Assembly: GCA_943735955.1 (NCBI GenBank)
Contig: OX030958.1
Location: forward strand, 671,001 to 735,000
Length of the DNA: 64,000 bases
Source: Piscicola geometra
Lineage: Eukaryota; Annelida; Clitellata; Hirudinida; Piscicolidae
Direction of reading: 5' to 3'
Part shown: positions 1 to 55,770 of the stretch, piece by piece
Layout: every line of letters starts with the position of its first letter
Numbering within the stretch: the stretch's first letter is position 1
Notes under the pieces: model-generated
Told to the model about the DNA's origin: nothing
What the model saw: the letters and a program-made list of their open reading frames with translations, nothing else
Databases searched by the model: none
Position numbers and translations under genes: made by a program

Positions 1-590
1 GTGTGTGTACCTCTAATAAATCGACCTTCTGGATCATTGCCAAAGATGCATTTAACTTTCCCATCACATCTAATATATATCTAATAAAGATGAGAATCGA
101 ACCAAAACTTAATAATTCGAGTTCGATTGAAGATATACAGATACTTACTTTTGACAATAACATTTTTTTAACAAATGTTTTGTTAAATATTATCATTGAA
201 TGTATCCCAATTTACTTAAATATCAAATACATAATTGTTGTTCCAGATGCTTGTATATGTTATTCGAATAATTAGTTTGATGACACCCATAAATCAATCA
301 ACCACGATAACTAATAGATATCTAATAGAGAATCGAATCCGAACTTAATAGTTCGATTGAAGATACAGATATATCAGATAAACTAAATAAATAAATAAAA
401 ATTTCGGTTTTTCGGTAAATATGAGATCCATTTCGGCCGAAACCGAAATTGAGCCGAAATTACAAAATTATTTTCGGCCGAAACCGAAAAATGGCCGAAA
501 TTGTAAAATTAGATTCGGCCGAAACCGAAAAATGGCCGAAACTAAGAAAATTGGCAATTTCGGCGCCGAAACTTTATGAATGTTTACAAA
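1..590 (-). repeat. Truncated copy of the TTTCGGCCGAAA-rich hAT-like repeat
   Basis: The segment is the inverted counterpart of 38045-38680. It shares the stretch with repeated AATCGAA and TCTAATAGA words, then an array of palindromic words built on TTTCGGCCGAAACCGAAA at about 400-580. The outer end runs into the (CA)n-linked block also seen at 27040-27110 and 38617-38735. The terminal TAGAGACCGACCGAAA of the intact copy is missing here, so this copy is truncated. No coding sequence is recognisable. Confidence 0.7.
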
Positions 591-2608: not shown

Positions 2609-4009
2609 TAATGCTCGTCATAATCACCATTATAATCATTCTAACTTTTAGGATTTATTTACGAACTAAGAACGCAAAAAATATTATTTCGAAAAATGAA
2701 AGTTCGAACATTATGGGTATCCGTCCAATCTGGTATTTTAGAGTATAACGTTTTTCATTTTTTGAAAACTCTTCTGGCAAGGTATTAAAGGTCTAAAATC
2801 AGTCGAGTTTAAGCAATACAGCTTTCCAAATACAAAACTTCTGCAAGTCTTTGACTTCTTCCTAAAATGCCCGTTTGGTGGAGAAGACAAGCTGGGAGGT
2901 TGCATGACGTCACCTAGCTTGACCAGGTGCTCACATGGATCTTCGAAACTTGAAGCCAACCGTTTTAAGAAATAATTATTTAATTTGCAAATATTTGAAA
3001 AAAGTTAATAATAATAAATAACATTTTGATTTATTAAATCGAAAAAAAAGTATCAATAAATTCAGGGGTGATGTGAATAATAAAAGAAAAAAAACACTGA
3101 GTATATGAAACTAGTGAAGCTTTTTCAGAGCCACTTTATTATTTAGGAGCCTTTGGGGACGAAAAACTGCCTGAAGACTGTGAGCTTTTTATTCTGTGTG
3201 GGTGTTGGTGGTTTGGTGAGGAAGAGTGAGTTTTCAGTGAAGGAAACCTTCATGGCAATCATTTGTATGCATTTTGCACGAGCGTCAAATAAATAAGACA
3301 ACAGCGAAGGGCAGTGAAGTGGTTTAAAAAAGCATTCGTGTGCTAATTGCTAAATCCCCAAAAATCAGAAGTTGTTCAAAAAGAAATAAGAAAATAGTTT
3401 TTGCTCAATATAACTTTGGTTGCGTAAGGCATTTTGAAGACATTTTGCATTTGTTTGAATGGGACAGCTGGATACTGTGTTTCTTTCAAACACAACATCC
3501 TATCGTCACCGAAAGAGCTTCAGCGACTGTTCGAATAAATCAAAGATTTATTTTAAAATTTAAACAACCACACCACTCAGCACAGCTCCACCTATCTAGC
3601 TAGGAGAACGTCACATAGCAAAAGCAGCTTCTCCATAGGAAGAGTGTAATCACACATCTGAAACGAGAGGCTCCTACATGCAACTGTACTTGCTTGAAGG
3701 CAGTTGGTCATCCTACGTTATCTAACAAGTGCGATATGAGAATTAGAAGGGTCATGTTGGAACCCACAAACAGAGGAAGCAGCAGAGAGGTATGAAACGA
3801 GTCAATAAATTTGAAGATTTTAATCTTATTTCACCCCATATTTTAATAAGAAAAAGATTCTGCAAATTTAATCTGAAATTTGACATTCACCGAAATATAC
3901 CGATGATTTGTAATGATGATCAGCAATCATTGGTGAGACAAAGCCCTAGTTGCACAGGAGACGAACATATCAAGGCATGTTTCAAATGCCCCAAAAATTC
4001 TATTGTAAA
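2609..4009. other. AT-rich stretch without recognised gene
   Basis: No conserved domain, repeat array or transposon end was recognised. On the minus strand this is downstream of COPS7 and may include its 3' UTR or further non-coding exons; several AATAAA-type words on the minus strand (for example near 3545) could serve as polyA signals. The short open frames at 2738-2959 (minus) and 3340-3603 (plus) resemble nothing I know. Confidence 0.4.
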
Positions 4010-4012
4010 CTA

Positions 4013-4606
4013 TAGGCTACCCAGCAAGCACAGGCTACCCAGCAAGCACAGGCTACCCAGCAAGCACAGGCTACCCAGCAAGCACAGGCTACCCAGCAAG
4101 CACAGGCTACCCAGCAAGCACAGGTTACCCAGCAAGCACAGGCTACCCAGCAAGCACAGGCTACCCAGCAAGCACAGGCTACCCAGCAAGCACAGGCTAC
4201 CCAGCAAGCACAGGCTACCCAGCAAGCACAGGCTACCCAGCAAGCACAGGCTACCCAGCAAGCAAAGGTTACCCAGCAAGCACAGGTTACCCAGCAAGCA
4301 CAGGCTACCCAGCAAGCACAGGCTACCCAGCAAGCACAGGCTACCCAGCAAGCACAGGCTACCCAGCAAGCACAGGCTACCCAGCAAGCACAGGTTACCC
4401 AGCAAGCACAGGCTACCCAGCAAGCACAGGCTACCCAGCAAGCACAGGCTACCCAGCAAGCACAGGCTACCCATCAAGCACAGGCTACCCAGCAAGCACA
4501 GGCTACCCAGCAAGCACAGGTTACACACAAGCACAGGCTACCCAGCAAGCACAGGCTACCCAGCAAGCACAGGCTACCCAGCAAGCACAGGCTACCCAGC
4601 AAGCAC
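4013..4606 (-). repeat. 18-bp minisatellite directly after COPS7 exon 8
   Basis: About 33 near-perfect copies of an 18-bp unit (plus strand GCTACCCAGCAAGCACAG). On the coding (minus) strand the array begins right after GTGAGTGCTTGC, a consensus-like splice donor that overlaps the in-frame TGA ending the COPS7 reading frame. The unit length is a multiple of three, which explains the long open frames across it on both strands. It is either an intron start or 3' UTR. Confidence 0.9.
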
Positions 4607-7600
4607 TCACGTCAGCTTGATCTTGCCCTTCTTGCCTGCCACCTTGTCGGAGGAGGAGGTCAGATCGAGCGACAAGTCGTCGTCGGTGTCCGCATGCGAC
4701 GAAGCCTTCATGCAACTCTTCATCTTCTGCATCTGTTGGTCACCATTGCGCTCATTGTGGGAGTTGCATGTGGTGCGTTTGCTGCTGAGAAGATGGAATT
4801 CATTGAGGCATTCGACGTGTGTCCAATAAACTGCCATCCAATAGGCTTCGTAGAAGCACCCACCTCCCCTGGCAAGCAAGCACCCACCTCCCTAGCCAAC
4901 AAGCACCCACCTCCCTGGCAAGCAAGCACCCACCTCCCCTGGCAAGCACCCACCTCCCCTGGCAAGCAAGCACCCACCTCCCCTGGCAAGCAAGCACCCA
5001 CCCCCCCTGGCAAGCAAGCACCCACCTCCCTAGCAAGCAAGCACCCACCTCCCTGGCAAGCAAGCACCCACCTCCCCTAGCAAGCAAGCACCCACCTCCC
5101 TGGCAAACAAGCACCCACTCCCCTGGCAAGCAAGCACCCACCTCCCCTGGCAAGCACCCACATCCCCTGGCAAGCAAGCACCCACCTCCCCTGGCAAGCA
5201 CCCACCTCCCCTGGCAAGCACCCACCTCCCCTGGCAAGCAAGCACCCACCTCCCCTGGCAAGCAAGCACCCACCTCCCTAGCCAACAAGCACCCACCTCC
5301 CTGGCAAGCAAGCACCCACCTCCCTGGCAAGCAAGCACCCACCTCCCCTGGCAAGCAAGCACCCACCTCCCTTAGCAAGCACCCACCTCCCTAGCAAGCA
5401 AGCACCCACCTCCCCTGGCAAGCAAGCACCCACCTCCCCTGGCAAGCACCCACCTCCCCTGGCAAGCAAGCACCCACCTCCCCTGGCAAGCAAGCACCCA
5501 CCTCCCTGGCAAGCAAGCACCCACCTCCCCTGGCAAGCAAGCACCCACCTCCCCTGGCAAGCAAGCACCCTTCTCCCTAGCAAGCAAGCACCCACCTCCC
5601 TGGCAAGCAAGCACCCACCTCCCCTAGCAAGCAAGCACCCACCTCCCTGGCAAACAAGCACCCACTCCCCTGGCAAGCAAGCACCCACCTCCCCTGGCAA
5701 GCACCCACATCCCCTGGCAAGCAAGCACCCACCTCCCCTGGCAAGCACCCACCTCCCCTGGCAAGCACCCACATCCCCTGGCAAGCAAGCACCCACCTCC
5801 CCTGGCAAGCACCCACCTCCCCTGGCAAGCACCCACCTCCCCTGGCAAGCAAGCACCCACCTCCCCTGGCAAGCAAGCACCCACCTCCCTAGCCAACAAG
5901 CACCCACCTCCCTGGCAAGCAAGCACCCACCTCCCTGGCAAGCAAGCACCCACCTCCCCTGGCAAGCAAGCACCCACCTCCCTTAGCAAGCACCCACCTC
6001 CCTAGCAAGCAAGCACCCACCTCCCCTGGCAAGCAAGCACCCACCTCCCCTGGCAAGCACCCACCTCCCCTGGCAAGCAAGCACCCACCTCCCCTGGCAA
6101 GCAAGCACCCACCTCCCTGGCAAGCAAGCACCCACCTCCCCTGGCAAGCAAGCACCCACCTCCCCTGGCAAGCAAGCACCCTTCTCCCTAGCAAGCAAGC
6201 ACCCACCTCCCTGGCAAGCAAGCACCCACCTCCCCTAGCAAGCAAGCACCCACCTCCCTGGCGAACAAGCACCCACTCCCCTGGCAAGCAAGCACCCACC
6301 TCCCCTGGCAAGCACCCACCTCCCTGGCAAGCAAGCACCCACCTCCCCTGGCAAGCACCCACCTCCCCTGGCAAGCAAGCACCCACCTCCCCTGGCAAGC
6401 AAGCACCCACCTCCCCTAGCAAGCAAGCACCCACCTCCCCTGGCAAGCAAGCACCCACCTCCCCTAGCAAGCACCCACCTCCCTAGCAAGCAAGCACCCA
6501 CCTCCCTGGCAAGCAAGCACCCACCTCCCTGGCAAGCAAGCACCCACCTCCCTGGCAAGCAAGCACCTCCCTAGCAAGCAAGCACCCACCTCCCTGGCAA
6601 GCAAGCACCCACCTCCCCTGGCAAGCAAGCACCCACCTCCCTGGCAAGCAAGCACCCACCTCCCCTGGCAAGCAAGCACCCACCTCCCTAGCAAGCAAGC
6701 ACCCACCTCCCCTGGCAAGCAAGCACCCACCTCCCCTGGCAAGCAAGCACCCTTCTCCCTAGCAAGCAAGCACCCACCTCCCTGGCAAGCAAGCACCCAC
6801 CTCCCCTAGCAAGCAAGCACCCACCTCCCTGGCGAACAAGCACCCACTCCCCTGGCAAGCAAGCACCCACCTCCCCTGGCAAGCACCCACCTCCCTGGCA
6901 AGCAAGCACCCACCTCCCCTGGCAAGCACCCACCTCCCCTGGCAAGCAAGCACCCACCTCCCCTGGCAAGCAAGCACCCACCTCCCCTAGCAAGCAAGCA
7001 CCCACCTCCCCTGGCAAGCAAGCACCCACCTCCCCTAGCAAGCACCCACCTCCCTAGCAAGCAAGCACCCACCTCCCTGGCAAGCAAGCACCCACCTCCC
7101 TGGCAAGCAAGCACCCACCTCCCTGGCAAGCAAGCACCTCCCTAGCAAGCAAGCACCCACCTCCCTGGCAAGCAAGCACCCACCTCCCCTGGCAAGCAAG
7201 CACCCACCTCCCTGGCAAGCAAGCACCCACCTCCCCTGGCAAGCAAGCACCCACCTCCCTAGCAAGCAAGCACCCACCTCCCCTGGCAAGCAAGCACCCA
7301 CCTCCCTGGCAAGCAAGCACCCACCTCCCCTGGCAAGCAAGCACCCACCTCCCTAGCAAGCAAGCACCCACCTCCCCTGGCAAGCACCCACCTCCTTTTC
7401 GACGTCGAGGTTCTTCTGAGCTGCTTGCAGCCTCGTGTGGTCTGCCTCCCTGGCCAGCTCCTCGATGTTCTGCAGCACTTGCGCGCATGTGCTGCAGCTG
7501 CATGGTGTCCATCGATCGTCAGTGGCAGTAGCTCAGAGGTCTCCATACAATAAGCTATCAGCCTAATGCCTATTAATGAGCATGTCACTCAGCCTGATGC

Positions 7601-10554
7601 ATATTAATGAGCATGTCACTCAGCTTGATGCATATTAATGAGCATGTCACTCAGCCTGATGCATATTAATGAGCACGTCAAACAGCCTAATGAGCATGTC
7701 ACTCACCAATCAGAGAGAACCCTCAGGATGTTGGCCACGCCTTCCTTCCTCACATCTCTGCCCACTGCATACTCCACCTGAGGGTGCATCGTTGCTGATG
7801 ACGATCACACAATTATCATTATCATAGTTTACAAATTAATAATTTAAATTAAACACCTCACAAGTATATTGCAATAATTATGGGCAAGATCACGTGATCG
7901 CGAGGTATATAAGGACGCCTGGAAGGGATGTGGGCATGTCAGAGGAGTAAGGGAGGTTCGATTGCATCGGGCAGTTGAGGTTAGCCGTCTCTGTTTCCTC
8001 GTGTCTTTCAGTACTAATTGATTCTTCTCCTTCTGTCATTTAATTTCCTGATTCTTTTTCATCTCGCTACTCAGTCCTTCTATATGGTCCTATTTGAGTT
8101 TCTTCTGCTGTTCTCCTTTCTTAATAAATCAATCTAAATCGCAAGTTGTAACGATATCTATCCAAATTTTTCATGGATTTTAATTCCAGATGTTCAAATA
8201 TTGTCTTGATGAAAAAACATTTATTAACTCGAATTATACGAGCGCCAGATGTATGCCCTCCTGCTACCACTCCACCATTCCACTCCTCCACCACTCCACC
8301 ATTCTACCCCTCCACCACTCCATCACTCAACCATTCCACTTCTCCACCATTCCACTACTCCATCACTCCACCAATCCATCACTCAACCCCTCCATCACTC
8401 CACCAATCCACCATTCCACTCCTCCATCACTCCACCACTCCTCCATCACTCCACTCTTCCACCCCTCCACCACTCAAACCTGCAAGTGCTGTTCTTGCTG
8501 ATCAAGTCTGCCTGCCACGATGCCGCTGTTGATCACCTCGATCAGAGAGTCCTGCACGCACGTCAGTATTCAACAAATATTATTGGCAGTGAATATAAAT
8601 GGAGAAACTAATGTGATGCACAAGGACAATGGCACAAAGACAATGGCACAAGGACAATGACACAAGGACAATGACACAAGGACAATGACACAAGGACAAT
8701 GACACAAGGACAATGACACAAGGACAATGGCACAAGGACAATGGCACAAGGACAATGACACAAGGACAATGACACAAGGACAATGGCACAAGGACAATGG
8801 CACAAGGACAATGGCACAAGGACAATGGCACAAAGACAATGACACAAGGACAATGGCACAAGGACAATGGCACAAGGACAATGGCACAAGGACAATGACA
8901 CAAGGACAATGGCACAAGGACAATGACACAAGGACAATGGCACAAGGACAATGGCACAAGGACAATGGCACAAGGACAATGGCACAAGGACAATGGCACA
9001 AAGACAATGACACAAGGACAATGGCACAAAGACAATGACACAAGGACAATGGCACAAGGACAATGGCACAAGGACAACCTCAAGCTCCCTCAGACTGCTG
9101 TATCCGAGCTCGTCGAGGAGAATGTTGTAAGGCAGGCACTGTGATGTTGTGGTGGTGATGATAGTAGTGGTGTGGTGGTGATGATAGTAGTGGTGTGGTG
9201 GTGGTGATAGTAGTGGTGTGGTGGTGGTGATTGTAGTGGTGTGGTGGTGGTGATTGTAGTGGTGTGGTGGTGGTGATTGTAGTGGTGTGGTGGTGGTGAT
9301 TGTAGTGGTGTGGTGGTGGTGATTGTAGTGGTGTGGTGGTGGTGCTAGTGGTGGTAATAGTAGTAGTAATAGTGAATAGGTCGATACACACTCGTGCCAC
9401 TGAAGCCTTAGTAATCAATTTGCAGCTAAAGTGGCCTCTCCGCTTATAAGCCACTCAGCTCTCACTGAGGGTGCACTTTTCACTTGGACCACTGAACTAT
9501 TGCCTGCCGCTCTTTCCAGATTGCATTAGTATTGTTTAGAATAAAGAATAATTGTATAGAATAATGAATAATTGTTTAGAATAATGAATAAATGATTAGA
9601 ATAATAGAATAATTGTTTAGAATAATAGAATAGTTGTTTAGAATAACGTAATAATAAGAATAATGATGAGCATTATTATAGTAGCGTATAACCCGAACGA
9701 GCTTCCAGACCACTTGAGCTGCATATTTCATTTGCGCCTTTGGGTTACTAGGGCATTAGTTGCACTTGAACCTAGGACCTTTCATTATTGGTCAAAGCCG
9801 AATAATGACTTCACAGATTTCGATATTGTTGGAGATTCATAGCAATATTGCAAGTACTTTTTTGTTAGAGGCGAGGGTCATAATGGTGAGGTGCCGAAGT
9901 TTGTTGATGTGCTTGTCGTTGAGGGCAGGGTAGTTGTCTTTGGCATCTGAAGAGAGAGAAAGAGCAATCGAAATGAACCAATGCAAAGTAAAAATTACGT
10001 TTTCATATGAATGAAATATAAATAAGTTAACTTGAAACAATGGAACTGTTGATTATTGATTCAGATTGTAAAAATGAAACTTTAAATTATCTTAATAATT
10101 CGTTTTCTCCTCTTCATAATGAAATGGTGAATGAACTAACTGATATAGTCGTTGTACTTTCCATATGCAAACAGTTCCAGCAGTTCATAGTGCTTTGAGT
10201 GCTCTCCTGCCTTCAACTGTCATAGTTTTGGACATTTTAATTATGTACATTTGTCAAAAAAATTCGTTTGAAAAAATTCCCAATAATTTATAAATTCTTC
10301 ATTAATTCAGAAAAAGTAACAATTTTAACAAATATCAAACGTTAACTTAATTATTTTACTTTAAACTGTAAACTATTTTAAATAGCATAGTTACAAACCT
10401 GTTCGATGTTGGCGAGGTCGAGTAGTTCGCCGAAGACATAGAGGCCAGGAGTTTCAAGGGCCTGCATGAGCAGCTCTGCACAGGCCGCTCCCTCGGCAGA
10501 CTTGCCAAGCAGCAGAAAGTGCTCCAAGTGGTTCAGACAAGTCTTGTCCATCAT
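4607..10554 (-). CDS. COPS7: COP9 signalosome subunit 7 (split gene, at least 8 exons)
   Basis: CSN7 is a PCI-domain scaffold subunit of the COP9 signalosome, which removes NEDD8 from cullins. Exons on the minus strand: 10399-10554 (ATG 10552-10554), 10141-10216, 9858-9946, 9079-9138, 8480-8551, 7707-7777, 7392-7497, and a last exon starting near 4784 and ending at a stop at 4607-4609. The first seven join in frame at GT-AG sites and follow vertebrate COPS7 collinearly: [80 protein letters not shown]. The last exon encodes an acidic then lysine-rich tail ([19 protein letters not shown]), as usual for CSN7 C-termini. The join of exon 7 to exon 8 is out of phase with the visible sites, so a small exon or sequence error is likely there. 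Introns 3-7 carry minisatellites at their splice sites. Confidence 0.9.
4855..7391 (-). repeat. COPS7 intron 7 minisatellite, 20-24-bp unit, 2.5 kb
   Basis: A 2.54-kb array, roughly 110 units by length, of variants of (minus strand) GGGAGGTGGGTGCTTGCC with an optional extra GCTT. The real donor of exon 7 is AAGGAG followed by GTGGGTGCTTGCC, so each unit repeats an AG|GTGGGT donor-like site. Larger segments are duplicated: 5278-5614 recurs 611 bp further on, and 6188-6558 recurs 571 bp further on. All long open frames across the array are by-products of the repeat. Confidence 0.93.
7560..7706 (-). repeat. 31-bp tandem repeat in COPS7 intron 6, starting at the donor
   Basis: Four to five copies of a 31-bp unit containing, on the minus strand, GAGTGACATGCTCATTAAT. 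The donor of exon 6 reads GTGAGTGACATGCTCATTA, so the first unit is the 5' splice site itself. The array fills most of this roughly 210-bp intron. Confidence 0.85.
8268..8479 (-). repeat. Degenerate GGAGTGATGGAGTGG array in COPS7 intron 5
   Basis: An imperfect array of purine-rich 8-17-bp words (plus strand CCACTCCATCACT types) that begins immediately after the exon 5 donor (CAG|GTTTGAGTGGTGGAG on the minus strand). The unit is less regular than in the neighbouring introns. Open frames here on the plus strand are repeat artefacts. Confidence 0.8.
8626..9078 (-). repeat. 14-bp minisatellite in COPS7 intron 4, starting at the donor
   Basis: About 32 copies of a 14-bp unit (minus strand ATTGTCCTTGTGCC, with G/A and G/T variants). 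The first copy is the exon 4 donor itself: GAG|GTTGTCCTTGTGCC differs from the consensus unit by one base at the splice site. The array runs nearly to the end of the intron, leaving about 75 bp before exon 5. Confidence 0.92.
9141..9365 (-). repeat. 23-bp minisatellite abutting the exon 4 acceptor
   Basis: Copies of a 23-bp unit (plus strand GTAGTGGTGTGGTGGTGGTG plus ATT, grading into ATGATAGTAG variants) end within a few bases of the acceptor of COPS7 exon 4 (CACAG at 9139-9143, minus strand). This is the only array in the gene touching a 3' rather than a 5' splice site. CACCAC-rich sequence on the coding strand may double as a pyrimidine-poor tract. Confidence 0.85.
9537..9655. repeat. AATGAATAATTGTTTAGAAT short tandem repeat
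   Basis: Six or so imperfect copies of an 18-20-bp AT-rich unit (GAATAATTGTTTAGAATAAT) in COPS7 intron 3, directly next to the ATT-rich tail of the SINE at 9655-9805. Confidence 0.7.
9655..9805 (-). mobile_element. tRNA-derived SINE, family 1, copy 1
   Basis: It is closely related to 27632-27830: the minus strand shares GTAACCCAAAGGCGCAAATG, a conserved core (CTCGTTCGGGTTATACGC) and a 3' end ATAATAATGCTCATCATTAT. A B-box-like GGTTCAAGTGC is visible on the minus strand near 9751; the A box is lost. It lies in intron 3 of COPS7. Confidence 0.75.
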
Positions 10555-13149: not shown

Positions 13150-14640
13150 TCTCCACAGCTCGCTAACTAATTTCCAAAAAGACCCCTCCGAATGTCTGAC
13201 TGACTGGCAAATTCTTCTAGTCTTTTTAAATCTAGGCTGTCAAGTATATCCTGATGTGCATGACAAACGGCCAGTGAATTCAAACGAGGCTGTGTCATAG
13301 TTGCACGCAATCAAGTTTCAAAACGCCGCAAAGCAATAAACGACCTTTCTGCTGTACATAAAGTTGCTGGAGGCACAAGCATCAACCGGATCAGACGTTC
13401 AACTTGAGGAAACAGATGTCTGACTTCGGGATCATAGCTTGCATTTTTTGCGCTTATGCTAAAGTTCTGTATTCATTCTGGTCGTTAAACATAGCTAACT
13501 GTGAACAAAGACTAGTTGCATTTAGCTCACGATACTGCTTGCAAATATCACCAGTTAGGAACATTGTCTCCAGCTGCAAGTATGAACGCAAACCAGGAGA
13601 ATCTCGATCGAACCTTTCTGTGAGTTACAGGATTGCAGCGAAATATGCTGCTCGATAATGTTTCTCTGGTTTTGTTGCTACATAAGCTGGGCCTAGCCCA
13701 CAATATTTTTGTGGCGGCTTTCACACCCGACGTACAGCAATCGCCAAAACCATACTGGTCGCTGCAACCATTCCACTGACCTTGGCACTTGCTCACTGCA
13801 ACGACTTTTTTAACTGTTCCAGAAGTGAAAACACCAAAACAACTAGCTTGAGAGCCAGTGTAGTAGTGTCCTGTTGAAAAAAAGCCTCGAGCCTTTTACA
13901 GCTGTTTCATCAGCAATACCAATGGAAGCAAATGATTCCAAGCTAACAAGTACCACTTCATATTATTCAAGCCCAGATGACACTGCAGATACTCTGACCA
14001 GCTATCTTGTAGGACAAAGAAGTTTTATACTATACTTTTCATTTAGCGGCTCATCAGGAAAGTCAATTATAAGAGACACTAAAGCATTACTAAACTGCTT
14101 TTTTAACTTCCCTGAACGATTGTAAAAAGCACCTAACTCTTGGACAAACTGAAGTGAATTGCTCACAAAAAGATTTGCGGCAGCTGTGTGCTGGGCTACA
14201 AGATTTTCACAGTGTGCAGAACAGTGGAAAAACAATGCAAACGGATGCTCACTGCTGATAATAGCCAGACAACCGTTAAATCGGCCGTTCATGTTAGCAG
14301 CGCCGTCATAAATCTGAGCTCTGAGGTTTTCTATAGGTAGCATAATTCTGATCAGAAACTCTTGCTACAGCAGATAATTTTTGTCTGGTCGTGTCTGGTG
14401 GGCTGAATAAACCAATAAACTGTTCCTTAATATTAAGAGCTTCATCAAAAAAACGAATGCATATCGATTCCTGCTCTAACCCATTGCAGTCTTGTGTGCC
14501 GTCAACCATAACACCAAACTGGCTTGATTCGGCATTGACAGTGCACACTGTGTTTCTAACGATAGAATGAGCTAAAGGCATCAGCATTTTATTTTTGCAG
14601 TCATGTGATATGAAACTTGTAGTTTGATTTAACCACAACT
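13150..14640 (-). pseudogene. hAT transposase (DUF4371/ZMYM1-like), decayed
   Basis: Three overlapping minus-strand open stretches read in order through a hAT transposase of the ZMYM1/DUF4371 type. 14306-14638 has FGVMVDGTQDCNGLEQESI; 14002-14343 has YDGAANMNGRF and HCSAHCENLVAQH; 13200-13420 gives the hATC dimerisation motif (CTAERSFIALRR then NSLAVCHAHQDILDSLDL) across a stop. Frame changes and stops separate the pieces, so it is not functional. It runs antisense to the nested piggyBac gene and belongs to the element at 11752-17324. Confidence 0.8.
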
Positions 14641-15098
14641 TTAGTTAATGTTCGAAGCCTTTTGAAATTCATTAACTTTGGTTCATCTAAAAAATTGAAA
14701 GGGTCGATATTAAAGTAGACCTCAGAACCCCCTATGAACAACGACCATGCAAAATAAGTAACACAATGTGAATGATTTTTTTATAGTATAAAATTAATAC
14801 AAATGTAAATCTGTCTGTTTGCATAAAGTGAACCGATATTTTCTGAAAAACATCCTGAATGTCTGCTTGAGAAAATTGAAAATTCAGAAATTGTATTTTC
14901 TATAAATATAATTCATTAATTTAAATCCATAAATATAAAAAAAAGAGTAGGTGGAGGAGTATTTGAGTAAGCAAAGAATAGTTTTGCTTCAGGCAGCTAT
15001 CACTATAACTACGCCTACCCAAAGTATATTACTGAATAAAAATTCTGTTTCATGCGTTGGTTGACGATTATGCTTGTATTAACCCATTAACGCATACT

Positions 15099-19924: not shown

Positions 19925-22430
19925 GTGACTTTGTCTTGCCATGTTATGCCAAGGTGCGTCAGAGACAGCGAAGATGAAAGCTTTCGAGACTATCTTCTTG
20001 CCTGGCATAGGTTTCGCTGCCATACAACAGAGTGCTGAGAACGCATGCCTGGTACACTTTGAGCTTGGTCTTTAGTGTCAGTTGGTTGTTGGTCCATACA
20101 CGTTTTCTCAATCTGGCCATGACGCTGGCTGCTTTGGCGAGCCTCTTGTCAATCTCGATGTCCAGGGATAGGCTGCTAGTAATGACGGAGCCCAAATATG
20201 TGAACTTGTCAGTGGCCTCCAGCACCTGATTGTCGATTCTGATTGAGGGTGGAGCAAGCTGTCTTGACCCATAATGTTGGTTTTCTTGATACTGATGGTC
20301 AGACCGAATTCCATGCAAGCCTGAGCAAAGCGATTCATCAGCTGCTGAAGGTGTTCCTCCGTGTGTGACACCAGGGCCGCATCATCAGCGAACAGAATGT
20401 CTCTGATGAGGACAGTGCGAATTTTTGTCTTTGCTCTTAGGCGTGCCATGGTCAGCAGTTTCCCGTCACTTCTGGTGTGTAAATGGACACCTTCGGCAGA
20501 CTCTTTAAATGCAAAGTTCAACAGCATCGAGAAGAAGATACCGAATAATGTAGGCGTTAGCACACAACCCTGTTTGACCCCACTCTTGATTGTGAAGGAT
20601 TCTGAGGTCTCTCCATCGTAGCTGACCACACATTGCGTGTTTTTCGTGATAAGAAGTTGTAATGTTGAGCAGCCGAGGTGGACAGCCGATCTTCTTGAGT
20701 AGCCGAAATAGGCCGTTCCTGCTTACAAGGTCGAATGCCTTAGTTAGGTCGATAAAGGCGATATACAACGGCATCCGCTGCTCTCTGCACTTTTCCTGGA
20801 GCTGACGCACGGAGAAGATCATGTGGACTGTGGATCTTCCTGATCTGAAGCCGCATTGCGATTCAGGATACACGCGACTTGCTAGGACTTGGAGACGGTT
20901 GAGGACAACGCGGGCGAAAGCTTTACCCACGACGCTAAGCAGTGAGATGCCCCTGTAGTTGTTGCAGTCGCTGCGGTCGCCCTTGTTCTTATACAGGGTG
21001 ACAATCTCGGCATTGCGCATGTCCTGTGGATCTCTACCTTCTCTCCAACATAGGCAAAGGAGCTTGTGAAGTGGTTCTAGTAGAGACGGTTTACCACATT
21101 TGATTATTTCTGGTGGGATGCCATCGTCTCCTGGTGCTTTTCCACTCTTTAAGGCATCAATAGCTTTTCTGAGTTGGTCCATGGTCGGCTCGACATCCAG
21201 CTCTTCCAAGACTGGCAAATCTTCAATAGCGTCCAGTGCTATCTGAGTCACAGAGTTTTCTTTAGAATAAAGTTCCAGATAGTGTTCGACCCACCTTGCC
21301 ATTTGCTTGTCTTTGTCTGTGATGGTCTCTCCTGATTTGGACTTTAAGGGTGCTGTCTTCTTTGCTGACTTGCCTGTTGCTTTTTTGATGCCTTCATACA
21401 TGCTCCTTACGTTGCCAGAGTCTGACGCTTGTTGGATGCTATTCGCCAGTTGAAGCCAATAGTCATTTGCGCAGCGTCGAGCCGTCTGCTGGGCCTTTCT
21501 TCGGGCAGCTTTCAACTCTTCGAAGGTGGACTGACTCGGGTCGCGTTTGTAATCAATCAATGCCTTTCTCTTGGCGTCAATAACAGGCTTGAGATCTGCC
21601 GCATTCGCTTCGAACCAATCGGTGTTCTTGTGTTCCTTTTTACCATACGTGAGTAAAGCAGTTCTGAAGATGGTATTCCGGAGCGAGTTCCATCTGACTT
21701 CCGCGTTAGGCTCTTGGTCGCAGTGTTGCAGCTCCCCCAGCCGATCTATGAACTCATGGTTCTTGTCCTGATGGGTGGTCTGATAGGTGTTGATTTTCGG
21801 CTGGCATTTCTTCTTGGAGAGGTGGAGCCTCTTGGGGTGCAACTTTATCTTTGACGCGATCAGAGAGTGGTCTGTATCGCAATCGGCGCTATGGTAAGCT
21901 CTGGTGCTGCGGACGTTGTTCAACGAGTTGTGCCTGGTGATGATCAAGTCCAGTTGATGCCAATGATTTGATCTTGGATGTCTTCAAGACACCTTGTGAC
22001 ATGCTTTGCTCTAGAAGTATGTGTCTGTTACGCAAAGGTTGTGGTAGCAACAGAATTCGAGTAGTCACTGGCCATTTTCGTTCATTTTCCCGATGCCATG
22101 GTGACCCAGCACATCTGGCCATGAGTCGTGTTCAGAGCCAACACGGGCGTTAAAATCTCCCAGAAGGTAGAGGTGTTCGGAGGCAGGAACTGTGGCAACA
22201 ACGCTGCTTAGTTATTCATAGAATTGATCTTTAGTCTCGGTGCGGGCTTAGGACGGGCGGTAGTTACCATGGGACTGCGAGGGTCCCTCCCACCATTGAA
22301 GACAACCCGTAGCGTCCAGCTCTACGCCAGTTGAGCAGAGACTTATAACCCGTAAACTGCTGTCTTCTTGTTTGTGCTCTCGCCGTAAAGCGAGACTGGA
22401 GTGAACATCTCTAAAATTTTCAAACTTTTC
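19925..22430 (-). mobile_element. RTE-type non-LTR retrotransposon, decayed
   Basis: Reading on the minus strand: an AP-endonuclease part ([10 protein letters not shown] and SEHDSW at about 22080-22180, then DLIITRHNSLNNVRSTRAY and DCDTDHSLI at about 21870-21950), a long linker, and a reverse transcriptase. RT signatures are GKAPGDDGIPPEI, YKNKGDRSDCNNYRGISLLS, ESQCGFRSGRSTVHMIF, YIAFIDLTKAFDLVSR (motif A) and ILFADDAALVSH (motif C), then TYLGSVITSS and LYGSETYA. The order and motifs fit the RTE clade (the craniofacial development protein 2-like mis-annotations). Stops and frame changes at about 20620, 21950 and 22060 break the reading frame. Confidence 0.9.
20505..21947 (-). pseudogene. RTE endonuclease-reverse transcriptase, main open part
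   Basis: A 480-codon open stretch covers the end of the endonuclease (SADCDTDHSLIASKI), the linker and RT blocks up to motif A (IAFIDLTKAFD). It then runs out of frame, and the catalytic ADD block continues in another frame at 20108-20629. A single frameshift near 20600 separates motif A from motif C, so no complete RT can be made from this copy. Confidence 0.85.
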
Positions 22431-22528
22431 AAATGGGGGGGGGGTCAAATTTAACTATAAAGTTTTAATATTAATTTTATTCGTTAGGCAAAAAATAAAA
22501 AATTATTTAAAAAAACATTTACTGGAAA

Positions 22529-23114
22529 TCAAAAATTTATAGCCACCATACAGTGATCACTTTTCACAAATTCACCAACCCACCCTTCTACCACTTCTTC
22601 CCTTCCTCTATCGTTAGTTAGTACCAAGTATAACCCAAACTCTTTCTTGCCACATTTCCAAGTGGGAATGTTCATCCCTGGCCACTCACAATTCAAGATG
22701 CTCAGCTCTTCCTCTTCGATCATTTTCTTAACCATCAAACCGTTTGTGTTATCTACCCCATCCAATTCCATAAGATGTCCATTGAAATCCCCTCCTACCA
22801 CAAGTCTATCTCTTGTCTTTTTTGTTTCCTTTGCCAACCTAGCTATGCATGAAATTCTTCTTTTATTTGCACCGTTATCCACCCCTTCGCATCTCTGATA
22901 CACCACACACAACCCCAGACCTGTTTCTCCGTTCATCCTCAACACCAGCAAATCTTCTTCTTGGTATTTGTTCACTACCTCTGCTTTCAATTCCTTCTTC
23001 ACTAAACACCCCACCCCACCACATTTCCCTTCTTCCATCTTCCTTCCCACACCAAACCATTCTAAAAAACCCTGTCCATCCTTCATCTGATCTTCGTTTA
23101 GGTTTTTCTCGCAT
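22529..23114 (-). pseudogene. LINE AP-endonuclease fragment (second LINE family)
   Basis: The minus-strand open frame has the hallmarks of an APE-type endonuclease: VVGGDFNGHL (catalytic D/N), a WKCGKKEF block in the DYVL region and SDHCMV (catalytic SDH). The N-terminal part (GGVGCLVKKEL) also fits. No RT follows. It lies upstream of, and is different from, the RTE copy, so it is a separate fragment. Its polar Lys/Glu-rich coding sequence is largely uninterrupted over about 185 codons. Confidence 0.75.
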
Positions 23115-23139
23115 AGTCCACAGATATCTATATCATTAG

Positions 23140-24200
23140 TTGAACAGATTTAAATGTGATGTTTTTATCACATTAAACATTTTTGAAATTTTATATTTTA
23201 GTTTTCAAACGATTTTACAATTTTATTAATTAGTCATTGAAAAATAATTAATCAAGCTCAGTAAAATTATTTTTTATATCTAGAAACTTTGTAACACAAA
23301 TGAATTGATATCTATTCGTGAATTTAATTTTCCAGTACCGGAGGCTTCATAATTGCTGAATAAATTGTATAACGGCCAAGATTAAATTCTGAGAGCAAGT
23401 GAATGAGATGCGACATCAACAGAGATTCTTATTTTAAATCATTAAAATTACTATTCAATGATTTCATTACTTTGATTCTTTAAAATAAAAAAATATTTGA
23501 TTAAAAATCATTCACTCGAGTCATTAGCAATTTTAAGCCACTATCAAGGACCGAGATAATTTATCTTATTCAAATAAAAATTAACTATTAAAAATCTTGA
23601 AAAAAGAACTAATGTTTTTATTTTATTTATTGAAAAAATATAACCTTTACTCTATCTAGAGACTCTATATTTTTGATTTGAACCTTGTGCTCTATAACAA
23701 TCACTTTCAGAATAGAGATATTGGCCTATTTTATTGTTGTTTAATTTTGTTGAGTTCATCATTTTGAGACTTTTATAACTTGAAAATACTTTCTTTAAAT
23801 TTTTTAATCTTTTAATCAAATTTTCCGAATTCTTTTTTTTTAATCCGGGTTTATCATGTTTAAACATCTGGAGAACCAACAAAATTAAAAAATAGTATTT
23901 TTTGGTTTTGTGGCCATGTCGTTTAAAAATCTAAATGAACTTTGAATAGTTAAAAACATGTTTATTCAAACAAAGATTCCTCCTACTATTAAGAAACAAT
24001 TGTTAGATATACTTGTTTTTTTTCTTTATTTCCCAATTTAAATCTGAGCTAAAAATATAAGTTATATCATTTAAAAAAGCTGTTAAATTATATTTTATCT
24101 ATGAAATATGAGAGATGTTGACTATTCGCTTGCTGTATAAATTGATAAAATAACTTATTGTTAGTAAAAAAAAGTATCAATAAATTATTTATATAATGGA
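23140..24200. other. AT-rich region, nothing recognised
   Basis: No transposon ends, arrays or domain matches were seen. The short minus-strand open frame at 23652-23882 resembles nothing known. The 3' part is the upstream region of the secreted-protein gene. Confidence 0.45.
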
Positions 24201-38044: not shown

Positions 38045-39218
38045 TAGAGACCGACCGAAATTCGGTTCAGTTTCGGTTTCGGCGCCGAAATTGCCAATTT
38101 TCTTAGTTTCGGCCTTTTTTCGGTTTCGGCCGAATCTAATTTTACAATTTCGGCAATTTTTCGGTTTTGGCTGAAAAGAATTTTGTAATTTCGGCTCAAT
38201 TTCGGTTTCGGCCGAAATGGATCTCATATTTACTGAAAAACCGAAATTTTTATTTCTTTATGTAGTTTATCTGATATATCTGTATCCTCAATCGAACTAT
38301 TAAGTTCGGATTCGATTCTCTATTAGATATCTATTAGTTATCGTGGTTGATTGATTTATGGGTGTCATCAGACTAATTATTCGAATAACATATACATATA
38401 CAAGCATCTGGAACAACAATCATGTATTTGAAATTTAAGTAATTGGCATACATTCAATGATGATATTTAACAAAACTTTTTTTAAGCAAATTCTATTTCT
38501 TAAAACATTTGTTTAAAAAAAATGCTATTGTCAAAATTAAGTATCTGTATATCCTCAATCGAACTCGAATTATTAAGTTTGGGTTCGATTCTCATCTCTA
38601 TTAGATATCTATTAGATGTGATGGGAAAGTTAAATGCATCTTTGGCAATGATCCAGATTTATTAGAGGTACACACACACACACACATACACACACACACA
38701 CATACACACACACACACACACACACAAACACACACATTATTCGAATAAGATATACAAGCATGTGGAATTCTAGATATCCATGCTTTGAAATATAAGTAGA
38801 AAGAACGAGAAGATTTGGCTTCGAATAATTAATTCAAAAATAAATTGTGAGAATGTCGTCGAATCCTATTTGGAAGTTTTTTACAAAATGTCAGTCTGAC
38901 CAAAGCAAAGCCTGACAACATCAATAAATTTTTGTTGAAAAACTTTTATTTTTTTTGCTTAAAATATACGCTTGTTTGGATTTATTTATTAAACTGGCAT
39001 TGTCATCATTAAATACTATTTTTTCATTTGGAATAAAAATTGGCAAAAATTTCGGTTTCGGCCGAAAATCTGCTTACAATTTCGGTTTAATTTCGGTTTC
39101 GGCCGAAATTTGATATTCAATTTCGGCTTAATTTCGGTTTCGGCTGAAAATGGGATTTTAATTTCGGCCTAATTTCGGTTTCGGCCGAAATAAAAATATC
39201 TGTTTCGGTCGGTCTCTA
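38045..39218. mobile_element. hAT-type non-autonomous element rich in TTTCGGCCGAAA (8-bp TSD)
   Basis: The termini TAGAGACCGACCGAAA and TTTCGGTCGGTCTCTA are inverse, and perfect duplications CCCCAAAT lie at 38037-38044 and 39219-39226. Both subterminal zones are arrays of TTTCGGTTTCGGCCGAAA with A/T-rich spacers. The centre holds the dispersed block also seen at 1-270 and an imperfect (CA)n tract (38667-38737). No coding sequence is recognised. Confidence 0.85.
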
Positions 39219-54207: not shown

Positions 54208-55770
54208 TAGAGGTCGGACCGGGTACCCGCGGGACTCCCGCGGGAACGGGAATGAAAATAAAATTTCGGGACGGGAAAAGTCGGGAACCGGGAATAGGTT
54301 TTTCGGGACGGGAACGGGAATCAACATTCAAATCGGGAACGGGAAAAGACGGGAACGGGAATCAACTTTTAAATCGGGAACGGGAAAAACGGGAATAACA
54401 GTTATTGGGATTGGATTCTTTAACAATGATTTTTCAGCAAACTTCTAAGTATGGAAATCTTTATTTCATCGATACTCCGTACTTAAAATAAGTATTAAAT
54501 GCAATGGAAAAGTATAACGAAGCCACCATTGCCAATATCAAAACCTCCAACACTACATTTGAAGTTGTTATGATGAGTCCAAAGATTAGGGAGATTAGAA
54601 CAAATGGGTGATGATGAAAACTTTTCAGATGAAACCAAAATGGTCAGTTATATTATTTTAATTTTATAAATTAATACTTTGAATTTGAATGATTAATTTC
54701 CAAATGATTGCTCAGTTGATCATTTCGACAAAAGAAAAGATGCCATTGATCTTATTCGTATGACAGCATGTCTGTTGCATCCCCAGTATGAAAGAATAAT
54801 AGGAAAAAAGTTTGGGATAGAAGAGAAATAAATACCAAGACTTTCATTAGAAAAAATTTAATTCTATTTTTTACAGCCAGACCAAGCTGCAGTGCCTTTG
54901 AGAAAAAAAACAAATGATGGTTATTTAGACCTATTATGTTTGTTATTATAATGTAAAAATTATAATAAAATTATTATACTATCAAATTATACGAATGATT
55001 TTATATTTGCAGTTGTAGAGAATAAGAATGTTGTTATAAAACATATTTCTAACATTATTGAAGAATTAGTAATAATGAACAAAGAAAAAAATTCAGAAAA
55101 GGATGAATTGAACAAATATTCACAATTACGTCCCAAAAAAAATTGAAAATTATAAAGATGTTTTATTTTATTGGAGTAAAATGAGCAATTTTAAAATAGT
55201 ACAAGAAGTAGCCAAAATTTTGTTTAGTGTATCTGCATGTTATATTCGTTGTGAACAGAATTTTTCAATATGTGGTCGTTTAACTTCAGACCCAAAATCA
55301 TCTCATTTGAAAGCTGAAACTCTTAACGGTTTAACCCGTGTGAAAAGCAATAAAGACTTGATTGAATAACTCAAAAACAATACTTTCATTTCAATAAATA
55401 TTGAACTTTAAATCGTGTTTTTTTTATTTCATTAAAAGAAATATTCTCTGACTTTTAAATAATAAATTTTAAGAAATTTTAGAACTAGCAAGTTTGGGAC
55501 CAGTAAAAACGGCAGCGAAAATGAATAAAAAAACAAAAAGCTTTCGGGAACGGGTCGGGACGGGAAAAAAATTTCGGGAACGGGACGGAACGGGAATCAA
55601 AATTCTGATGTCCCATCGGGAACGGGACGGGACGGGAAAAAAAATTTCGGGAACGGGACGGGACGGGAATCAAAATTCTGATGTCCCATCGGGAACGGGA
55701 CGGGACAGGAAAACAAATTTCGGGAACGGGACGGGACCGGGAATGAAAAATCGTCCATGTCCGACCTCTA
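54208..55770 (+). mobile_element. hAT element of the GGGAACGGGA family (8-bp TSD)
   Basis: The ends TAGAGGTCGGACCGGGTACC and GTCCATGTCCGACCTCTA are inverse, with perfect duplications ATTCCCAC at 54200-54207 and 55771-55778. Long subterminal zones of CGGGAACGGGA repeats lie at 54230-54400 and 55550-55745. Between them is broken hAT transposase, including the hATC end at 55181-55369 (YIRCEQNFSICGRLTSDPKS). Confidence 0.88.
55181..55369 (+). pseudogene. hAT transposase C-terminal (hATC) remnant
   Basis: EQNFSICGRLTSDPKSSHLK then ETLNGLTRVKSNKDLIE matches the dimerisation motif (SERxFSxxGxxxxxxRxxLxxxxxxxLxxL) of Ac-type hAT transposases. Upstream sequence (54480-55140) has stops and frame changes. 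Confidence 0.65.

Follow-up and report, generated by a model that had tools for sequence, protein, structure and literature searches.

Tandem arrays in the fish leech Piscicola geometra reach both kinds of exon edge more often than random placement within introns would produce, and their composition is specific to the side of the exon, mostly GT-rich after donors and CA-rich before acceptors in the loci sampled, a pattern open to testing across the genome and in relatives. The case that drew attention is COPS7, in which five consecutive introns begin with an array. The gene lies within a 64,000-nt stretch (hereafter, the window) of the wrPisGeom1.1 assembly, described in the accessible part of its report as 171.1 Mb, sequenced to 76-fold with HiFi reads and including a mitochondrion of 15.1 kb; an assembly of the alternate haplotype is also listed there (PMC11134150).

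COPS7 is on the minus strand of chromosome 4, with exons spanning window positions 10554 down to 3139. Our final model has 9 exons, a predicted protein of 268 aa and GT-AG borders in 8 of 8 introns, as follows:

10399..10554, minus strand, exon 1 with the start codon (gene model)
10141..10216, minus strand, exon 2 (start set by LKAGEHSK, similar to MKSGEHSK in the relative's protein P0001)
9858..9946, minus strand, exon 3 (gene model)
9079..9138, minus strand, exon 4 (gene model, P0001 alignment)
8480..8551, minus strand, exon 5 (gene model, P0001 alignment)
7707..7777, minus strand, exon 6 (gene model, P0001 alignment)
7392..7497, minus strand, exon 7 (gene model, P0001 alignment)
4611..4732, minus strand, exon 8, terminus AC/GTGAGTG with the slash at the exon border (gene model, P0001)
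3139..3193, minus strand, exon 9 with the stop codon (P0001 extension)

Similarity of the predicted product identifies the gene as COPS7, which encodes subunit 7 of the COP9 signalosome; the match to human CSN7B has E = 7.3e-54, computed with a 246-aa partial model that had a short exon 2 and lacked exon 9. P0001, a protein of 278 aa from a relative, is 61% identical to predicted COPS7 and presumably derives from a transcript, since the longest contig there is 997 nt. Its alignment with COPS7 is gap-free over the exon 4/5, 5/6, 6/7 and 7/8 junctions, and it carries 0 insertions at the junctions flanking arrays (a comparison with the relative's protein rather than with P. geometra RNA). Beyond exon 8, P0001 reads GIKSSQSSNSFSSPKLPK, and the window encodes TIKSSQSSGSFSSPKAPK and a stop at 3139-3193, preceded by an acceptor. 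The donor after exon 8 is supported by homology because this extension matches exon 9, and the possibility that GTGAGTG at this position is a mere overlap with a stop codon (TGA) is ruled out by P0001 and exon 9. Homology supports all five predicted donors of introns 4-8. The exon borders proposed by the initial annotation agree with P0001 and appear right, and the donor that it placed after exon 8 appears to be real, leading to an exon 9 that resembles the relative's protein and was absent from that annotation. At the exon 6/7 junction (window 7497-7707), the tryptophan of human CSN7B is a cysteine in both the predicted protein and P0001, and the codon for this cysteine is split by intron 6.

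No TRF array was found in COPS7 introns 1 and 2. Those of interest in introns 3-8 are:

9141..9355, minus strand, intron 3 array, CA-rich, at the 3' end (TRF; 23-bp row 9148-9355, overlapping 12-bp row 9141-9333)
8618..9077, minus strand, intron 4 array, 14-bp unit, 33 copies (TRF; begins 1 nt inside donor GTTGTCC)
8258..8475, minus strand, intron 5 array, irregular GGAGTGGT-type units of 8-32 bp, up to 26 copies (TRF; 4-7 nt inside donor GTTTGAG, the best-scoring row beginning at 7 nt)
7558..7692, minus strand, intron 6 array, 31-bp unit, 4.4 copies (TRF start 14 nt inside donor GTGAGTG)
4854..7386, minus strand, intron 7 array, TRF period 23-24 bp, 111 copies (unit consensus GAG/GTGGGTG)
4014..4606, minus strand, intron 8 array, 18-bp unit, 33 copies (TRF; begins 4 nt inside donor GTGAGTG)

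The CA-rich array of intron 3 comes to 9 nt (23-bp row) or 2 nt (12-bp row) from the acceptor. This intron is not donor-anchored, a second array there (20-bp unit) lying 211 nt from the donor. Arrays starting at the donors of introns 4-7 and after exon 8, as initially reported, are confirmed. Counted from the donor, the TRF starts of introns 4-8 fall 1, 4, 14, 5 and 4 nt into the intron, respectively, and in intron 6 the homology of the unit reaches +1 of the donor. The lack of relationship among the arrays, in unit length and sequence alike, is likewise borne out. When the same arrays were placed at random within the same introns, the observed 5 of 7 arrays starting within 15 nt of a donor compared with 0.71 expected, and 0 of 3000 random placements reached five.

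The further claim that the first repeat unit is the donor itself stands for intron 7 and fails for introns 4, 5, 6 and 8. Units with a GT where that of the donor would align numbered 0/31, 0/9, 0/3, 105/105 and 0/31 in introns 4-8, and 0/32, 0/4, 0/3, 189/194 and 0/29 when recounted from other seeds. Only intron 7 truly copies its donor, since the GT is retained by the units there and by none in the other four. The COPS7 units contain no exon sequence, apart from the four adjoining nt GGAG carried by those of intron 7. In that intron, 98 GTs downstream of the true donor reach its score on the donor matrix. The intron 7 array also holds three further matches (92-96%) to one 754-bp stretch, displaced by 614, 1157 and 1726 bp.

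COPS7 had been picked for being striking and is thus not a fair sample, so a separate test set was used, consisting of 32 loci among the matches listed in a genome search for the protein kinase family (20 of 10 kb, 10 of 4 kb and two shorter). Exons were located by profile and splice sites set by joint scoring, and 76 of 78 introns, from 27 loci, were kept (two were excluded for ambiguous borders); the set missed introns, such as one with a 26-copy array at its donor (L025, position 5699). Arrays, 43 in total, occurred in 30 of the 76 introns. Their ends lay within 3 nt of an acceptor 6 times vs. 1.5 expected (P = 0.001), and their starts within 3 nt of a donor 3 times vs. 1.5, which is not significant (P = 0.17). 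The GT fraction of the units was 0.68 in the 24 arrays nearer the donor and 0.30 in the 19 nearer the acceptor, with a correlation of -0.62 between relative position and GT fraction (P = 8e-6). Once introns under 130 nt (17/76) were omitted from the 12-mer and end-folding analyses, the donor 12-mer recurred within 100 nt, at up to 2 mismatches, in 3/59 introns, vs. 18/59 and 16/59 for control 12-mers taken 20 and 50 nt inside; repeats are in general scarcer at the donor itself than slightly deeper in the intron. COPS7, with recurrence in 4/8 introns, is exceptional relative to this set (Fisher P = 0.003).

Inspection of 41 long arrays in loci L011-L040 indicated that many seem to touch exons missed by the kinase profile. 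For a second independent set, a simple exon finder was trained on the kinase exons (exact recovery of 47/76 homology donors and 54/76 acceptors), and 287 of 618 second-pass predicted exons were retained after filters for score, array overlap (>25%), strand conflict and the COPS7 region. These exons come from 33 stretches, with the COPS7 region excluded and the rest of the window included, and introns were taken between neighbouring predicted exons on one strand, which gave 86 introns with 147 arrays at a TRF score of at least 50. Random placement restricted to introns replaced a raw edge-density measure (~5-fold at donors, ~11-fold at acceptors), which was overstated, as arrays confined to introns crowd the edges by geometry. 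With P values uncorrected for arrays sharing a locus or for the several thresholds, array starts at donors (bin [-1,3)) numbered 7 vs. 3.0 expected (P = 0.027, 6 loci) and array ends at acceptors 12 vs. 2.9 (0/1500 simulations, 9 loci), with 4 vs. 1.2 (P = 0.033) and 7 vs. 1.2 (P = 0.0007) at TRF scores of at least 100 (67 arrays), and 4 vs. 0.8 (P = 0.009) and 5 vs. 0.7 (P = 0.0013) at scores of at least 150 (47 arrays). Further in, the counts were 6 vs. 3.6 (P = 0.15) in donor bin [3,7), and 2 vs. 3.5 and 6 vs. 3.1 (P = 0.08) in acceptor bins [3,7) and [7,11); beyond 16 nt from exon edges they were near or below expectation.

Restricting the test to 215 higher-confidence exons gave 5 vs. 2.4 at donors (P = 0.078) and 11 vs. 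2.7 at acceptors (0/3000) at the lowest TRF threshold, and 3 vs. 0.65 (P = 0.025) and 5 vs. 0.62 (P = 0.0003) at scores of at least 150. To guard against predicted exons being ended by the arrays themselves, array interiors were also exchanged for random sequence, with 25 nt retained at each edge, before exons were re-called (292 exons), and in this control donors had 9 vs. 3.3 expected (P = 0.0025) and acceptors 11 vs. 3.3 (0/2000). Overall, array edges at -1 to +2 nt are about 2-5 times as frequent at donors as random placement gives, and about 3-8 times at acceptors; the donor enrichment is modest, and acceptors are enriched at least as much. The expectation of the initial annotation that arrays lie nearer to donors than chance is thus upheld across the 33 sampled stretches, but it applies to acceptors too. 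Position independent of splice sites, a trait of ordinary intronic minisatellites, is not what we find, given the excess at both.

Composition follows the side of the exon. When arrays lying between -6 and +10 nt from an exon edge were sorted by side, the acceptor set was CA-rich in 25/25 cases and the donor set GT-rich in 17/20, so that, viewed from the exon, the GT-rich strand usually reads outward on both sides. Edges free of arrays (none within 150 nt) have a weaker bias in the same direction, with GT at 0.522 near vs. 0.462 far from donors (167/270 exons) and CA at 0.589 near vs. 0.492 far from acceptors (174/270 exons). This flanking bias is an average tendency: in the 76 kinase introns, the GC skew was positive in the 5' part of just 40 and negative in the 3' part of 63. 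Local complexity at array-free acceptors was lower than deeper in the intron (0.530 vs. 0.570, P = 0.0002), and at array-free donors it was not reduced relative to sequence further inside (0.539 vs. 0.546, P = 0.34). Acceptor-side arrays are G-poor (2.7% G), and 20/25 lack any AG. An apparent avoidance of AG in them (21 vs. 50.9 expected) was due to one long array, at L019, without which the count is 21 vs. 25.6, and the AG count equals the GA count in 17/25 acceptor arrays; the scarcity of AG is one of base composition. Avoidance of decoy donors was not evident either, with no clear difference by distance in the arrays without a GT as strong as the true donor (9/15 at up to 10 nt, 11/15 at 11-60 nt and 37/72 further away).

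Arrays of this kind are not confined to COPS7. Locus L007 has an exon, which we take to belong to a Sac1-type phosphatase, whose donor is followed from -1 by 104 copies of a 20-bp unit; this locus was found by its similarity to intron 7 and was excluded from the placement tests. L021 has a donor-anchored array of 114 copies. L021 5387 and L025 5699, in paralogous kinase genes, both have an array anchored at the donor; the intron position appears to correspond, and the units are different (21 bp vs. 14 bp). The CA-rich arrays at L024 2541-3912 (91 copies) and L019 5797-6647 (66 copies) stop 2 and 10 nt short of the acceptor, so that the branch point is probably within the array or far upstream. 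In the window as a whole, TRF returned 80 rows, merging into 32 arrays that cover 9,467 nt, and array density in the 20 loci L011-L030 ranges from 0 to 16 per 10 kb. A repeat of 41-bp period with a CGGCCGAAA-type core occurs at window 431-541, 38107-38217 and 39048-39208, and CGGGAACGGGA-type repeats at window 54307-54395 and 55544-55749 as well as on another contig (L023 8461-8667) are perhaps a dispersed repeat family. A Pfam search of 20 window ORFs returned reverse transcriptase and endonuclease domains, with DUF6451 and DUF4371 below cut-offs. On the minus strand, retroelement remains occupy 19962-23149 (reverse transcriptase PF00078 in two ORFs, endonuclease-type domains in adjacent frames), and broken ORFs at 13170-14644 resemble a hAT-type transposase, with the weak DUF4371 match below its cut-off.

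It is tempting to speculate that these arrays are minisatellites seeded in the strand-biased sequence flanking splice sites and bounded at the exon by selection, the explanation that we favour, tentatively, and to which we would give somewhat less than an even chance. Intron flanks are on average strand-biased (GT-rich on the donor side, CA-rich with little G on the acceptor side), which the composition data partly show, and such simple sequence would be prone to slippage and tandem duplication. Many independent duplications in a minisatellite-rich genome would then grow by unequal exchange and block duplication, and selection would purge the arrays that enter an exon or break a splice site, so that edges accumulate at the junction. 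Each array would be an independent event whose exon-proximal copy stays a working splice site as the intron lengthens, and COPS7 would be a gene in which this occurred in five consecutive introns. Seeding in simple sequence is supported on the acceptor side only, because complexity is not lower at array-free donors. The recurrence of the 754-bp stretch at three offsets favours growth by blocks, and near-identical stretches are dispersed along the arrays of L007 and of COPS7 introns 4 and 7. Homogeneity is even along introns 4 and 7 and mixed in L007; in L021 homogeneity peaks at the donor end, whereas in COPS7 intron 8 divergence peaks there, so that no single growth pattern emerges. A broader version is possible but rather unlikely, in which exon edges of both kinds are birthplaces of minisatellites, the sequence flanking splice sites being amplified time and again into strand-polarised arrays with the GT-rich strand pointing outward from the exon, and thereby a general route of intron lengthening in this leech lineage; if true, the spliceosome must choose the exon-proximal one among ~100 equally strong sites in that intron.

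The edge at the junction could also arise if the first duplication straddled the exon-intron boundary and the array copies then drifted together while the exon copy stayed fixed, as in the minisatellites called mirages, for which amphioxus provides a published precedent (PMC3087553, as far as its accessible text goes). Such a history would account for the sharp edge and for the loss of GT from the units of 4/5 COPS7 arrays, and the intron 7 consensus does retain GGAG/GTGGGTG, i.e., four exon bases plus the donor. Across 17 donor-side arrays, however, exon-tail bases match the units at 36/136 positions (0.265) vs. 0.234 for swapped tails, leaving no clear remnant of an exon copy, and we regard this origin as unlikely. 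The initial annotation had instead suggested a recurring process at 5' splice sites (replication slippage, R-loops or splice-linked break repair). Donor anchoring in 5/8 COPS7 introns, donor enrichment outside COPS7 (7 vs. 3.0), the long donor-anchored arrays of L021 and L007 and the homogeneous donor end of L021, as growth at the donor would give, all fit such a process, and the recurrence at donors survives as a finding. Its donor specificity does not: acceptors are at least as enriched (12 vs. 2.9) and with the reverse composition, 4/5 COPS7 arrays have no GT in their units, and recurrence over 59 kinase introns is lower for the donor 12-mer than for deeper ones. R-loop, transcription-linked and donor-linked break models are not expected to fit, since acceptors are enriched with CA-rich arrays, and a donor-specific process seems to us distinctly improbable; any explanation has to cover both splice sites and to claim less for donors.

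Nothing special would need explaining if a minisatellite-rich genome had simply been viewed through a gene chosen for its striking look, and arrays are indeed abundant, both in the window and in L011-L030, while the kinase donor test alone is not significant. The COPS7 placement result (5 vs. 0.71, 0/3000), the controlled, independent enrichment at both splice sites and the composition rule make this reading very doubtful. Most improbable is that the arrays are functional intron ends, GT-rich at 5' and CA-rich at 3', which pair in the RNA and join the splice sites. The mean GC skew does run from +0.37 to -0.59 along the 76 kinase introns, and 10/59 end pairs fold at -40 kcal/mol or lower, but own ends (-18.6) hardly differ from swapped ends (-17.5, P = 0.15) or from shuffled sequence (mean z -0.07) in these 59 introns. 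Likewise, after omission of introns under 200 nt (30/76), the remaining 46 have as many shared complementary 8-mers between own as between swapped ends (0.63 vs. 0.63), and their 5' G content is unrelated to their 3' C content (rho 0.06). We reject pairing of the intron ends, as neither duplex energy nor 8-mers exceed those of swapped ends.

Intron lengthening is usually considered in connection with transposons, and arrays seeded and bounded as we favour would offer a testable picture of lengthening without damage to splicing. COPS7 intron 7, with its donor-strength GTs, is in addition a natural experiment on the choice of the exon-proximal 5' splice site. Among the papers listed by searches of the literature, with most subscription papers outside their coverage, no report of leech exon-edge arrays or of the side rule appeared. 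Lin and colleagues reportedly described, in 2016, fish introns in which AC repeats at one end and GT repeats at the other are said to replace U2AF2; the leech introns have GT-rich 5' and CA-rich 3' ends in common with these, but without a pairing signal beyond composition. For human genes, Zhuo and colleagues reportedly described in 2007 how introns arise from tandem arrays. The human and the leech cases both concern arrays containing splice-site sequence, but in the leech it is existing introns that are lengthened, and no new intron is shown.

In Caenorhabditis elegans, the accessible part of the CeRep25B report links intronic minisatellites to alternative splicing through one shared family near alternative exons (PMC4039745). 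The leech minisatellites resemble what is described there in being intronic and near splicing decisions, but their units are unrelated to one another and are anchored at exons not known as alternative. The closest known system, judging from the available portion of its report, is that of the amphioxus mirage minisatellites in Adh3 and globin genes, tandem arrays at exon-intron boundaries on both 5' and 3' sides that are said to leave regular splicing intact and to undergo concerted evolution from which the boundary copies are excluded (PMC3087553). At COPS7 introns 4-8 and at other loci, leech arrays likewise lie at exon-intron boundaries, with 5' and 3' boundaries both enriched in the sample, and they look like mirages and may work like them. 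The amphioxus units, as described there, span the boundary and contain exon sequence, whereas leech units stop at the junction and match the exon at chance level (36/136 vs. the 0.234 control); we therefore do not class them as mirages, of which exon sequence in the unit is a defining feature. Beyond what that portion of the amphioxus report describes, the leech arrays add a GT/CA rule of sides and an excess over random placement measured across many loci.
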